A stretch of 64,000 nt of DNA, from positions 310,001 through 374,000 of the forward strand of contig NZ_JABBWV010000004.1 in the NCBI RefSeq assembly GCF_012999535.1, in the 5' to 3' direction. The position numbers and the translations under genes are program-made. Source of the stretch: Microbispora sp. H11081. Lineage in GTDB: Bacteria; Actinomycetota; Actinomycetes; Streptosporangiales; Streptosporangiaceae. The notes below the pieces were generated by a model. That model did not search any database, had not been told where the DNA came from, and saw only the letters and a list, made by a program, of their open reading frames with translations. This document shows, piece after piece, positions 10,939 through 52,455 of the stretch. Positions within the stretch are counted from its first letter, which is position 1, and every line of letters begins with the position of its first letter.

Positions 10939-11176
10939 CGTGATCTTGTAGTTTGTCGCAGAGGCATGGCTTGACCAGGGCGTACGCCCTCCGCGATCAT
11001 GCAGAAAATCGTTGCGCACCCCGTCTGGCCTGGGTAAACAGCATCCGTGATCTTGCAAATGCAAGATCGCGGAGCGCGTCCGGGCAGGTCATGCGGCGAG
11101 GTCGAGAATAAGTGCAAGATCACGAAAGGTGTTTGAGCAGTTCACGGCTCTTTTTGCGACAAACTCCAAGATCACG
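10939..11176. repeat. Element A: inverted array of six phased GTGATCTTG boxes
   Basis: Non-coding, 238 bp. The left end (10939-10960) begins CGTGATCTTGTAGTTTGTCG and the right end (11155-11176) is its complement with one mismatch in 22. Inward boxes start at 10939, 10992 (CGCGATCATGCAG) and 11046 on the left, and mirror-image boxes end at 11071, 11124 and 11176 on the right, giving steps of 53, 54, 53 and 52 bp. A second box follows 32-33 bp inside: TTGACCAG at 10971, CTGGCC at 11025, and reversed CAGGTCAT at 11085-11092. A C-run precedes the element and GGGGGGAGGG follows it. It has no ORF or transposase. Element B at 50784 has the same plan. Confidence 0.9.
11044..11073. other. Central palindrome of element A
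   Basis: TCCGTGATCTTGCA and its mirror meet across only two bases, giving a 14-bp stem with one mismatch (a G-U pair in RNA). In a cbs-gamma-lyase readthrough transcript this would form a compact hairpin. Confidence 0.8.
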
Positions 11177-48802: not shown

Positions 48803-50788
48803 ATGGGTGTGAAGGTCAGCGTGGTTATGCCCGTGTCCAACCCCGGGCTGTCGAACGACGCCTTCGGCGCGAGTGTGCGCTCGGTGCTGGAGCAGTCGCT
48901 GCCGCCGGAAGAATACGAGGTCATCTTCGCGGACGACGGGTCGACGGACGGGACCCGCAGACGGCTCGACGCGATCGCCGAGCAGCGCGGCAACGTGCGG
49001 GTCCTGCACCTCGACCACAGCGGCTCGCCCGCGCGTGGCCGTAACGTCGGCCTGTCGGTGGCGCGAGGCGAGTACGTCTACCTGCTCGGCCAGTACGACA
49101 GGCTGGAGCCGCGGGCCCTGGAGCTGATGTACGACAGGGCGGTGGAGACCGACGCCGACGTGCTGATCGGCAGGCTCGCGAGCCAGGGGCCGCCTGCGGC
49201 CGCCTTCGCCCGCGACCGGGACCGCGCCGACGTCCTGCGCGACCATCTCCTCGCGCTGCCGACGGCGCACAAACTGTTCAGCCGCGACTTCCTGGAGACC
49301 TGCCAGCTCCGCTTCGCCGACCGGCCGCTGTCCGAGCAGGCCTTCGTGACCAGGGCGTACCTCGCCGCGAAGGTGATCGCCGTGCTGGCGGACGAGATCT
49401 GCTGCCACCTGGCCCCCGTCTCCCCGGGGACGGCGGAGGAGGAGGGGCCGGACGCCGAGGGGCTCTTCGACGGCCTCAACGCCGTCTTCGACGTGGTGGA
49501 CGCCTACACCGAGCCCGGCCCGCAGCGAGAGCGCATCCAGGCCCACTGGTATCGGACGCTCGGGCTGCGCCGGCTGGCGGGCCCGCGATTCCTCGCCGCA
49601 GGCACCGACGAGCGGACGGTCCTGTTCTCCTTCCTGCGCCGCTTCACCCTCGACCGCTTCCCCTCCGCGCTCGACGTCCACCTGCCCGCGCACCTGCGCG
49701 CCCGTACGGCGCTGCTGCGTCAGGACCGGCTCGACGCGCTGGTCGCCCTCGCCGAGGCGTCCCGGGGCACCAGGCTCAGCGCCGAGTTGCGGGAGCTGCG
49801 GTGGGACCAGGGCGTGCTGCTGCTCGACCTGAGCGTGGAGATCCTGCGGGCCGGAGGCGCCCCGGTGTGGCTGCGGCAGCGGGACGACCGGCTGCTGTGG
49901 GCCCCGCCCCCCGCGGTCGAGGGGCTGCTCGACGGCCTGCTCGACGACGAGGGCGCCGACATGACCGACGCCGTGCGCAGGGCCCGCATCGAGGTCTGCG
50001 TACGCCACGCGGAGACCGGGGTGGTCCACACCCTGCCGGTCACCTGCTCGGTGGGGAGGGCGGGCCTGGGCGACCGGGCGCGCGGCGGCCAGGTGCGCGT
50101 GTGGGTGAGCGGCCAGGCCCGGCTCGACGCCGGAGCGGCGGCCCTCGGACGGCCGCTGCCGGCCGGGCTGTGGGAGGTGCACGTGCGCATGCGGGGCGTC
50201 CAGGCGGGCCGCACCCGGGTGGCGCGACCCGCCCTGCCGATGAGCTGCGCCGGCTCGCTCGCCGGGGAACCCAGGCGCCTCGTGGTGCCCTGCTGGTCGG
50301 AGCGCGGCGACCTTGGCGTGTGCGTGGAGCCGAAGTCGTTCCCCGAGTCGATCGCGCTCGTCTCGTCGCGGGCCACCGTGGCCCAGCAGGAGGGGCACGT
50401 CTTCGTCGTCGTGCCCGTGCCGTACGTGCCGCCGAGCGGCGGGCCGCCGGCCGAGCTGGTGCTGCGGGAGAAGGACGGACGCGGGCGCAGCATGGTCGTG
50501 CCCGCGCTGGTCGAGCCGGGGATACCCGGCAGGGTGGCGGGGCAGCTCGTCGCGCGGGTGCCGGTGAGCCGGATCGGCGGGGACGACTGCCTCGGCCCGG
50601 GGTCGTGGCGGCCCGCGCTCCGGGTCGACCAGAAGGACGTGGACCTGCTGTTCGGGCTGGCGGTGCGTCGTGGCGGGCAGGTGTCCGTCCTGCCCGCGGG
50701 GGCTGCGCCGCAGGCCCCGTCGCTGCTGCGCCGCATCGCCGTCCGCCTCCGCGATACCGTCACCCCCCGCCCCACCCCACCGTCGTGA
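48803..50788 (+). CDS. GT2-type glycosyltransferase with altered active site
   Basis: The 661-residue protein has a GT-A domain (about 1-235) followed by a long C-terminal region of beta-type domains resembling TarP/TarS-like wall glycosyltransferases. The UDP-sugar end is normal (FADDGSTDGT, Asp44 and Asp45; GSPARGRNVGL). The metal-binding DxD that should follow in YVYL reads GQYD (96-99), so only the last Asp remains, and the base motif ED reads SEQ in PLSEQAFVTRA. The stop codon lies inside repeat element B. ATG start without ribosome site. Role inferred: wall glycopolymer modification, if active. Confidence 0.8.
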   Translation: MGVKVSVVMPVSNPGLSNDAFGASVRSVLEQSLPPEEYEVIFADDGSTDGTRRRLDAIAEQRGNVRVLHLDHSGSPARGRNVGLSVARGEYVYLLGQYDRLEPRALELMYDRAVETDADVLIGRLASQGPPAAAFARDRDRADVLRDHLLALPTAHKLFSRDFLETCQLRFADRPLSEQAFVTRAYLAAKVIAVLADEICCHLAPVSPGTAEEEGPDAEGLFDGLNAVFDVVDAYTEPGPQRERIQAHWYRTLGLRRLAGPRFLAAGTDERTVLFSFLRRFTLDRFPSALDVHLPAHLRARTALLRQDRLDALVALAEASRGTRLSAELRELRWDQGVLLLDLSVEILRAGGAPVWLRQRDDRLLWAPPPAVEGLLDGLLDDEGADMTDAVRRARIEVCVRHAETGVVHTLPVTCSVGRAGLGDRARGGQVRVWVSGQARLDAGAAALGRPLPAGLWEVHVRMRGVQAGRTRVARPALPMSCAGSLAGEPRRLVVPCWSERGDLGVCVEPKSFPESIALVSSRATVAQQEGHVFVVVPVPYVPPSGGPPAELVLREKDGRGRSMVVPALVEPGIPGRVAGQLVARVPVSRIGGDDCLGPGSWRPALRVDQKDVDLLFGLAVRRGGQVSVLPAGAAPQAPSLLRRIAVRLRDTVTPRPTPPS

Positions 50789-51042
50789 TCTTGTAGTTTG
50801 TCGCAGAGACCCGCGTTCACCTGCGGTGATCCCTTTGGTGATCTTGCAGAAATTTCGTGGAAAGCGCGTTGACCTGCGCGTACGGGGTTCGTGATCTTGC
50901 AGTCCCGTACGGCTGTCGCCCACTGCAAGATCACGAAACGCGAAAGTGCTGGTCAGGCGGGAAGTGGCCCCGTGTGCTGCAAGATCACGAAGGGTGGATC
51001 GCCTGTTCAGGCGGGGTGCGTGCGACAAACTACAAGATCACG
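50784..51042. repeat. Element B: inverted array of six phased GTGATCTTG boxes
   Basis: Non-coding except for five bases, 259 bp. The ends (50784-50805 and 51021-51042) are perfect 22-bp inverted repeats starting CGTGATCTTGTAGTTTGTCG. Inward boxes start at 50784, 50837 and 50890; mirror boxes end at 50935, 50989 and 51042, giving steps of 53, 53, 54 and 53 bp. Second boxes lie 32-33 bp inside: TTCACCTG 50816, TTGACCTG 50869, reversed CTGGTCAG 50949 and CTGTTCAG 51003. It separates two convergent stops. C-rich sequence precedes and G-rich sequence follows. Element A at 10939 has the same plan. Confidence 0.92.
50888..50937. other. Central 16-bp hairpin of element B
   Basis: TTCGTGATCTTGCAGT (50888-50903) and its exact complement (50922-50937) surround an 18-nt loop. 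In RNA from either neighbouring gene this would be a strong stem. Confidence 0.85.
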
Positions 51043-51060
51043 GTGGTGTGTGTGGGGGGG

Positions 51061-52455
51061 TTAGTGGGTGGGGTGGGTCATGGACAGTACGTCCAGGGCT
51101 TGGTCTAGCTGCTCCTCGGTCAGGGTGCCGTTCGCCACGTGGCCGCGCTCGATGACGACCTCCCGGATCGTCTTGCGCTCCTTCAGCGCCTGTTTGGCGA
51201 TCTTGGCCGCCTCCTCGTAGCCCACGTACCGGTTGAGCGGGGTGACGATCGAGGGTGACGACTCGGCGTACTCCCGCAGGCGGTCCACGTTGGCGGTGAT
51301 CCCGGAGACGCACCGGTCGGCGAGCAGCCGCGACACGCCGGCCAGCAGCCGGATCGACTCCAGCACATTGCGGGCCATCACCGGTAGCATCACGTTGAGC
51401 TCGAACGACCCCGAGGCCCCGCCCATCGTCACCGCGGCGTCGTTGCCCACGACCTGCGCGGCCACCATCGTGACGGCTTCGGGGATGACGGGGTTGACCT
51501 TGCCCGGCATGATCGACGAACCGGGCTGCAGGTCGGGCAGGTTGATCTCGCCAAGCCCGGCGCGAGGGCCAGACCCCATCCACCGCAGGTCATTGGCGAT
51601 CTTGTTGAGCGAGACGGCGATCACCTTGAGCATGCCCGACAGCTCGACCAGCCCGTCGCGCGCGCCCTGCGCCTCGAAGTGGTCCCGGGCCTCGGTGAAC
51701 GGCAGCCCGGTCGTACGGCTCAGCTCGGCGATCACGGCCTGCGCCCAGCCGGGGCCGGGCACGTTCACCCCGGTGCCCACGGCGGTGCCGCCCAGCGGCA
51801 GCTCGGCCAGGCGCGGCAGCGCGGCCTGGATCCGTTCGATGCCCAGCTCGATCTGGGTGGAGTAACCGCCGAACTCCTGGCCGAGCGTGACCGGCGTGGC
51901 GTCCATGAGGTGGGTGCGGCCCGACTTCACCACGTCGGCGAACTCGGTGGCCTTCTCCTCCAGCGCGGTGGCCAGGTGCTCCAGCGCGGGCGTGAGCTCG
52001 TGCACCACGGCGTACGTCGCCGCGACGTGGATCGAGGACGGGAAGACGTCGTTGGACGACTGGGCGGCGTTGACGTGGTCGTTGGGATGGACGGGCCGCC
52101 CGAGCCGCTCCTGCGCGAGCGTGGCGACGACCTCGTTCATGTTCATGTTGGACGAGGTGCCCGACCCGGTCTGGAACACGTCCACGGGGAACTGGTCGTC
52201 CCACCTGCCCTCGGCGACCTCGCCCGCGGCCTCCTGGATCGCCTGCGCCAGGTCCTTGTCGAGTACGCCGTACTCCGCGTTGACCTTCGCGCAGGCGGCC
52301 TTGATCCGGGCGAGCGCGGCGATGTGGGCGGGCTCCAGCCCCCGGCCGGACACCGGGAAGTTCTCCACCGCCCGCTGGGTCTGGGCCCGCCACTTGGCAC
52401 GGGCGGGCACCCGGACCTCGCCCATGGAGTCGTGCTCGATGCGGAATTCGTCCAT
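51061..52455 (-). CDS. fumC: Class II fumarate hydratase
   Basis: The 464-residue TCA-cycle enzyme interconverts fumarate and malate. The family signature [11 protein letters not shown] is at 312-322, with the catalytic serine in that loop; [27 protein letters not shown] and [18 protein letters not shown] are also present. It is the iron-free, oxygen-stable type. ATG 52455 follows AAGGAC. It is the most downstream of a same-strand set with two Ser/Thr kinases and class I fumarase. Confidence 0.96.

Follow-up and report, generated by a model that had tools for sequence, protein, structure and literature searches.

A glycosyltransferase family 2 gene with a TarS linker and a class II fumarase gene converge in the window (the whole 64,000-nucleotide stretch of Microbispora sp. 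H11081 DNA that was analysed) on a mirrored array of short boxes, here called element B. It consists of six 13-bp boxes of the CGTGATCTTGYAG type, three forward ones starting at 50784, 50837 and 50890, that is at 53-bp steps, and three mirrored ones with starts at 50923, 50977 and 51030. Terminal inverted repeats are present, as the sequence CGTGATCTTGTAGTTTGTCGCA at 50784-50805 recurs as its exact reverse complement at 51021-51042, forming a perfect 22-bp repeat. The six-box order, the coordinates and the perfect termini attributed to this element in a preliminary description can all be read in the sequence, and so can its location between convergent gene ends: the stop codon of the glycosyltransferase gene lies within the left terminal box, and that of the fumarase gene 18 bp beyond the right end. 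The same description placed a related array, element A, about 40 kb away, which is correct, but the genes flanking element A are codirectional and not convergent. The features are as follows.

50784..51042, no strand: element B, the whole mirrored 3+3 box array
50784..50805, + strand: left terminal 22-mer, made of the terminal box and an extension of nine bases, with the TGA stop of the glycosyltransferase gene (50786-50788) inside
50837..50849, + strand: inner box 2, ARG-box-like, rank 37 of the 63980 20-mers of the window
50890..50902, + strand: inner box 3, rank 72 of 63980
50923..50935, - strand: inner box 3', rank 19 of 63980
50977..50989, - strand: inner box 2', rank 39 of 63980
51021..51042, - strand: right terminal 22-mer
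50812..50825, + strand: mid-spacer motif, first copy (second copy at 50865-50878; mirrored and weaker in the right half)
50724..50783, + strand: left C-rich leader, within the coding 3' end of the glycosyltransferase gene (60 nt by convention)
51043..51102, - strand: right C-rich leader, at the fumarase 3' end with the TAA stop at 51061-51063 (60 nt by convention)
48803..50788, + strand: glycosyltransferase family 2 with TarS linker, left neighbour
51061..52455, - strand: class II fumarase, right neighbour
10939..11176, no strand: element A, the second array of the window, with codirectional genes on either side

With at most one mismatch, GTGATCTTGYAG is found 12 times in the window, where 0.20 matches are expected and none of 100 shuffles gave more than two; six of these matches belong to element B, four to element A, and two lie in other places. 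Among 15 congeners element B is present at the fumarase locus only in Microbispora sp. H11081. In 14 of them the next gene after fumarase is codirectional, with a called gap of 67-91 bp, unlike the convergent arrangement with the glycosyltransferase gene of H11081; two congeners carry about 6.5 kb more (five genes) between fumarase and glycosyltransferase, and thus element B sits at a deletion junction. This is not the rule for arrays: when 11 convergent arrays were followed by reading of coordinates in G001, G004, G005 and G010, four relatives in which boxes are few or absent, the neighbour genes were adjacent in at least one relative for nine, which eliminates the arrays as general rearrangement junctions; at L020 and L032 the neighbours are 2-4 kb apart in the relatives where both genes were seen.

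From two elements in 64 kb it had been expected that the genome (G000, a 7.38-Mb draft in 50 contigs) would hold many copies, and this is the case. A genome-wide count gave 164 exact 13-mer boxes (reversed-pattern control, 0), while the 20-nt terminus with up to two mismatches gave 140 matches, some of which are inner boxes (control, 0). At least 70 arrays could be catalogued from 69 loci, 51 of them full and 19 half. The possibility that no further copies exist in the genome or in relatives is likewise contradicted by the congeners: among 60 genomes, exact boxes number 51 in G003, 44 in G008, 41 in G006 and 12 in G004, with at most five in each of the ten remaining congeners (four in G010, one in G001, none in G005), and reach 302 in G037, a genome of another family. 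As read from the table, CGTGATCWTGYAG is present at least 20 times in six of 394 class-wide genomes (G000, G003, G067, G069, G113, G131). The exact 21-nt terminus was found in named records of Microbispora bryophytorum, M. rosea and Microbispora sp. H13382 (36 stretches, a count that may leave out the window's own genome).

The catalogued arrays share a very regular architecture. In logos of the outermost, second and third units (121, 121 and 118 units, respectively) the terminal 22-mer is nearly invariant, the inner boxes have the form TTCGTGATC[A/T]TGCA, and a motif near GACCTGCGC is recognized in the middle of the spacer. Each half array is about 120 bp long and carries three asymmetric boxes at a spacing of five helical turns. 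The distance between same-strand boxes is 51-55 bp in 250 of 260 cases; the exceptions are two of 63-64 bp, equal to one extra helical turn, four of 106-107 bp, equal to two periods, and four stray values. A similar distribution is obtained at the relatives' loci (144 of 159 at 51-54 bp, three at 63-64, nine at 106-107, three others). Of the 48 full arrays that have 3+3 boxes or more, 28 show a distance of 13 bp across the centre, and in the others this distance varies.

Gene neighbours were called at the array loci with a codon-usage caller made for this analysis. Out of 121 outer ends, 87 abut the 3' end of a gene, two face one farther off, 23 face a 5' end, and nine have no called gene; gene 3' ends are therefore faced by 89 of the 112 outer ends with a called neighbour, in agreement with the earlier idea that the arrays lie near gene ends. 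A convergent setting is common but not the rule, since the 43 of 51 full arrays with both neighbours called comprise 22 convergent, 20 codirectional and one divergent pair (the element-free neighbour pairs of the window, n = 50, are 9 convergent, 32 codirectional and 9 divergent). In 30 cases a TGA stop occupies a fixed position inside the terminal box, downstream of the leader. Half arrays are polarized: 17 of the 18 callable ones (of 19) face a gene 3' end (binomial p = 1.4e-4). The lone exception, at L018, is one of two halves flanking an amidohydrolase and a glycerate kinase gene, a cargo that lies between molybdopterin-dehydrogenase-type subunits and another amidohydrolase; because of this arrangement it resembles one half of a full element that was split in two.

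Outside the arrays there is a C-rich, G-poor leader, with C = 0.59 and G = 0.14 in the 30 nt next to 3'-facing ends; the tract is equally strong next to the 23 5'-facing ends (C = 0.59, G = 0.11). In the 87 genes facing an element, third-position G is 0.059 within 30 nt, 0.202 at 30-60 nt, 0.375 at 60-90 nt and 0.44-0.46 at 90-500 nt, as compared with 0.374, 0.395, 0.443 and then 0.42-0.43 in the same bins of 130 control genes. Among stops located outside the element 35 of 46 are TAA, versus 8 of 130 in controls (Fisher p ~1e-19). Within 45 nt, four-fold sites have C = 0.85 (control 0.51) and A = 0.05 (control 0.06), while Lys, Gln and Glu codons have A = 0.58 (71 codons) versus 0.13 in the control. 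Since one type of mutation cannot move four-fold sites to C and Lys/Gln/Glu codons to A, selection against G is the simplest cause of the leader composition. A mutational strand bias is a less likely cause, given that the direction in which G is lost differs between four-fold and two-fold codons.

The history of the leader can be followed in array-free congeners (7 arrays, 13 gene ends and 48 comparisons, confined to the alignable parts). Within 75 nt of the array, changes toward H11081 comprise 138 G>C versus 37 C>G, and 104 G>A versus 13 A>G; at 150-600 nt they are balanced (481 G>C versus 513 C>G, 218 G>A versus 192 A>G). H11081 has fewer G in 44 of the 48 comparisons and more in none. This comparison with element-free relatives shows that the G-poor leader was acquired, via whichever synonymous change was available. 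Leader 60-mers fold weakly (mean MFE -11.0 vs -21.0) and have a pooled C/G ratio of 2.54 versus 1.00. Both in composition and in fold they are what is expected of a Rho-dependent terminator, namely a stretch of ~70-80 nt of C-rich, G-poor, unstructured RNA ahead of the stop zone. Runs of C, which might have indicated a G-quadruplex or an i-motif, are accounted for by composition (25 of 87, versus 22.2, sd 3.1, in shuffles).

The positions of the arrays were also compared with those in sister species, as had been suggested. At least one flank is shared with a catalogued array in 21 of 23 array loci fetched from G003 and in 16 of 17 fetched from G006, and both flanks in 19 and 12 of them, respectively. 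In 37 orthologue pairs, obtained from 43 attempted, the substituted fraction is 4.5% for terminal boxes, 8.7% for inner boxes, 15.1% for the mid motif and 27.7% for spacers, with 12-13% for the flanks; orthologues were located via an exact box, which biases these values toward conserved boxes, and some arrays were counted with two or three relatives. Spacer length is kept, with 3% gapped positions in G003 and 19% in G006, a genome with losses of whole units. The boxes are thus constrained in place although the spacers diverge.

What the relatives have in place of an array was inspected at the junctions of six of the 11 convergent arrays. Homology ends near both stop codons, and clean empty sites were not obtained at these junctions because the relatives' intergenic sequences, often hairpin-rich by eye, do not align with one another. 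The best 50-nt fold in seven element-free convergent gaps has a mean of -27.0 kcal/mol (range -10.4 to -41.8), versus -17.1 kcal/mol in 125 half arrays; the comparison is of small sample (the seven gaps), and four of the half arrays are counted twice.

A candidate binder of the boxes was suggested by a letter search of papers, so that some look-elsewhere effect remains in the statistics that follow. According to the available text of PMC5839063, fragments of Streptomyces coelicolor DNA with the called ARG boxes CTCTCCGTGATCATGCACCC and TTCTGCAAGATCATTAATGC are shifted by ArgR in EMSA, and a shifted fragment has a called box similar to the array box. A matrix built from the 44 S. coelicolor ARG boxes in Table 1 of that article fits 259 inner boxes in a single register with a mean of 9.8 bits, close to the leave-one-out mean of 10.9 for the ARG boxes themselves. 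The fraction of these inner boxes above the window's 99.9th percentile is 87% with the full training set, 69% after dropping the three most box-like training sites, and 61% with a matrix of 11 boxes, mainly from arg and pyr genes; matrices with symmetrically shuffled columns performed equally well in 0, 2 and 1 of 200 cases, respectively. Terminal boxes score poorly (mean 3.0 bits, at best 24% above the 99.9th percentile); by sequence, inner boxes qualify as ARG boxes and terminal boxes mostly do not. With inner boxes so ARG-box-like, they are probably bound by ArgR, the arginine repressor, or by another protein that recognizes similar sites.

The native operator upstream of the argC-type gene of H11081, CACTGCATGATCATGCAGCA, agrees with the array box in all but one of 13 positions, and the site at which the array box departs from the palindromic operator is constant. 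In seven other congeners the operator matches the box at 9 to 12 of 13 positions, and this likeness does not appear to track the presence of arrays cleanly: it is 12/13 in G010, 11/13 in G005 and 9/13 in G001, genomes with four, no and one exact box, respectively. The argC family was set by Pfam in G000, G001 and G010, and argJ and argR likewise in G000. All 13 genomes examined for ArgR have it in single copy, whether they carry arrays or not, and hence its presence does not discriminate array genomes. This ubiquity, the poor fit of the terminal boxes and the consistent departure of the box from the palindrome count against ArgR. In all eight genomes a second ARG-like box is found 57 bp (56 in G005) from the argC operator, a distance near, not equal to, the 53-bp array step.

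Through their orientation, the placement of stop codons and the lack of G in the adjoining coding tails, the arrays are linked to transcripts that run into them. We suggest that the arrays could be two-sided gene-end terminators made of a Rho-loading tract and a phased roadblock array, perhaps bound by ArgR, a reading to which we give an even chance. The 60-90 nt of G-poor, C-rich, weakly folded RNA reaching to the array edge would load Rho, and a protein on the ~120 bp half array would stall RNA polymerase until Rho catches up; mirrored halves would serve convergent genes, and solo halves a single gene. With rut defined as in the available text of PMC6407284, a rut-like tract followed by a ~120 bp obstacle zone would have the geometry of a Rho-dependent terminator in which the pause site is a protein array. 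The model takes as its basis the observed anatomy, copy number, 3'-end placement and orientation, constraint, spacing, leader composition and acquisition, and motif match; protein binding, the identity of the protein as ArgR, Rho and termination itself are what it predicts. The facts that fit it worst are two. At the 23 ends facing gene 5' ends the C-tract is no weaker, and there it would need antisense transcription or a reason at the DNA level; the 30 leaders whose stop codon lies within the terminal box are translated and, for that reason, would sometimes be hidden from Rho.

Perfect inverted termini, dispersed copies and a patchy distribution among congeners could also be those of non-autonomous mobile elements, with the 22-bp termini and boxes as transposase-binding ends, halves as single ends, and gene ends as tolerated or preferred targets; inverted halves flanking genes at L018 and L045, and the restriction of element B to H11081 at the fumarase locus, would agree with this. 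We consider it unlikely, since boxes are kept in place while spacers diverge, and synonymous G depletion is left unexplained. Furthermore, no target-site duplication of 3-9 bp was found in any of the 51 full arrays (flanking duplications of length 2 occur in 12 of 51, versus 9.5 in shuffles), and the two flanked cargos contain no transposase, L045 holding an AbiEi/REase_MTES_1575-type gene. A REP/RAYT relationship was rejected, the H11081 genome having no match to PF01797 (Y1 transposase); G003 and G006 have three and two matches, and none of 13 fetched Y1 loci holds the box with 0-1 mismatch. The C-tract on both sides irrespective of gene orientation, by contrast a difficulty for the terminator model, is expected if the arrays mark a chromosome-architecture or topological boundary, in which ArgR or another nucleoid protein would bridge the halves, or supercoils would be handled between converging polymerases, with no terminator involved. 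Helical phasing, mirrored halves, the many convergent sites and a hexameric candidate such as ArgR also speak for such a boundary, which we nonetheless hold to be improbable: half arrays are polar to a single gene 3' end, and the loss of G at synonymous sites of abutting genes suggests a role for RNA.

A role for RNA could be more direct if the mirrored boxes folded as a long hairpin, acting as an intrinsic terminator or protecting mRNA 3' ends. Some complementarity can indeed be recognized in the 8 nt beside the innermost boxes (0.604 versus 0.486 in shuffles for 48 full arrays, reached by 0 of 2000 shuffles), rising to 0.670 where the central boxes are adjacent (28 arrays), and in G037 the box occurs in hairpins. 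Apart from these central 8 nt, however, the arms are no more complementary within than between elements (0.478 versus 0.476, and 0.427 versus 0.421), which does not support a hairpin across the whole element; half arrays have no mirrored partner, the constant helix-turn spacing has no rationale in RNA, and no Rfam match was found in the 64-kb window. We regard an RNA element as very improbable.

The two-sided terminator model can be placed among systems already described, each of which is cited here from the available portions of its source. Rho-dependent terminators, like the arrays, have an obstacle zone that comes after ~60-90 nt of weakly structured RNA rich in C and poor in G (PMC6407284), but the pause zone of the arrays consists of conserved, phased, mirrored, multicopy boxes that resemble protein-binding sites. 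Inner boxes agree with the ARG-box matrix of S. coelicolor (PMC5839063) and with the native argC operator; unlike ArgR operators, array boxes are at gene 3' ends, three per side, asymmetric and with a diverged terminal box. REP/BIME sequences are also multicopy extragenic repeats in alternating orientations (PMC2817692), whereas no Y1/RAYT-family gene was found in H11081 and the array units are non-palindromic boxes with a 53-bp period, constrained in place. The paired DNA uptake sequences of Neisseria are short repeated words whose inverted pairs act as terminators (PMC2397512); the arrays differ from them, as they are presented in that source, in phased spacing, in terminal 22-mers, and in having 164 exact boxes versus many single words. 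In H-NS-aided Rho termination a DNA-bound protein pauses the polymerase and aids termination (PMC4337669), as in our model, in which, unlike in the process outlined in that article, the array is sequence-coded and forms a mirrored gene-end module. No description of such arrays was found among the open-licence PMC papers listed for repeats, terminators, the box letters, rut, DUS, REP, ArgR and roadblocks; they look like an undescribed kind of gene-end signal, probably one that stops transcription from both sides.

To our knowledge, the ending of transcripts in high-GC actinomycetes is poorly resolved. A multicopy module with a sequence code, a footprint in synonymous codons and a named candidate protein makes the question of gene ends directly testable. 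If the model is true, evolution can turn the binding site for a classical metabolic repressor into a roadblock at gene ends, and coding sequence can come under measurable selection from a terminator. For actinomycete engineering, the arrays might be of use as compact two-sided insulators. More broadly, the box in five genomes of other families may be a variant of one actinobacterial gene-end system, in which ArgR, or a protein of the same specificity, on phased ARG-like arrays would act together with Rho from two sides, and neighbouring genes would rewrite their last 60-90 nt synonymously; this wider proposal we advance tentatively, as possible but rather doubtful.

The loci outside the genus that were studied are among the matches listed, and not a random draw. 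G037 carries the box as the outer portion of near-perfect hairpins of ~52 nt at gene ends; 16 of the 21 outer ends near a gene 3' end are 16-33 nt past the stop, and eight others face a 5' end. In G067, G069, G113 and G131 the box occurs single, paired or in tandem at gene ends, and the outer ends of 36 clusters divide into 25 within 120 nt of a gene 3' end, seven facing a 3' end farther away, 13 facing a 5' end and three with no called gene. The fraction of C outside 3'-facing ends in the five other-family genomes is 0.39-0.58. For G037 (76 codons), third-position G amounts to 0.21 in the nearest 30 nt versus 0.42 farther away, and in the other four genomes it is mixed and rests on 3 to 26 codons, so that outside Microbispora G depletion is weak or based on few codons. 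Because box spacings in these genomes are not strictly phased, the 53-bp array appears to be special to Microbispora among the genomes examined. One tandem, in G067, consists of 19 copies at 22 bp.

When the orthologous element centres at loci L100 and L128 are compared, the differences are mirrored on both arms (CATGATCATG versus CGTGATCTTG), and the central palindrome has therefore been kept. Another kind of change is seen between L198 and the loci L047 and L130, where approximately one 53-bp unit is missing between two right-hand boxes in one orthologue; this loss is consistent with recombination between units. The terminal extension TTTGTCGCA (unit positions 14-22) is nearly invariant over all outer ends, and the ArgR matrix, derived from S. 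coelicolor ARG boxes, does not account for it.

Genes are enclosed by inverted half arrays at two loci of the Microbispora sp. H11081 genome (G000):

L045 1472-2932 (G000, contig C23): inverted half-array pair and enclosed gene
L018 1497-4260 (G000, contig C1, 647396-650159): inverted half-array pair and enclosed genes

The single gene of L045, with AbiEi and REase_MTES_1575 matches, has a half array on either side and looks like an insertion into the middle of an array; the arrangement is also found in the congener G003. L018 encloses an amidohydrolase and a glycerate kinase, the whole lying within a molybdopterin-dehydrogenase-type and amidohydrolase gene set; this L018 arrangement is also present in the congeners G003 and G006, and the G004 counterpart has a decayed left half array. 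At the site of element B (window 50784-51063), an additional stretch of about 6.5 kb with five genes separates the glycosyltransferase gene from the fumarase gene in the congeners G008 and G010.

Boxes also occur in other actinobacterial families. Some 300 exact copies are present in G037, from another family of the order (L246-L273), and many of these form gene-end hairpins of about 52 nt. In G067 (contig C9, L320), a tandem run of 19 boxes at 22-bp steps, with at most 2 mismatches per box, is preceded by a stop codon 19 nt upstream.
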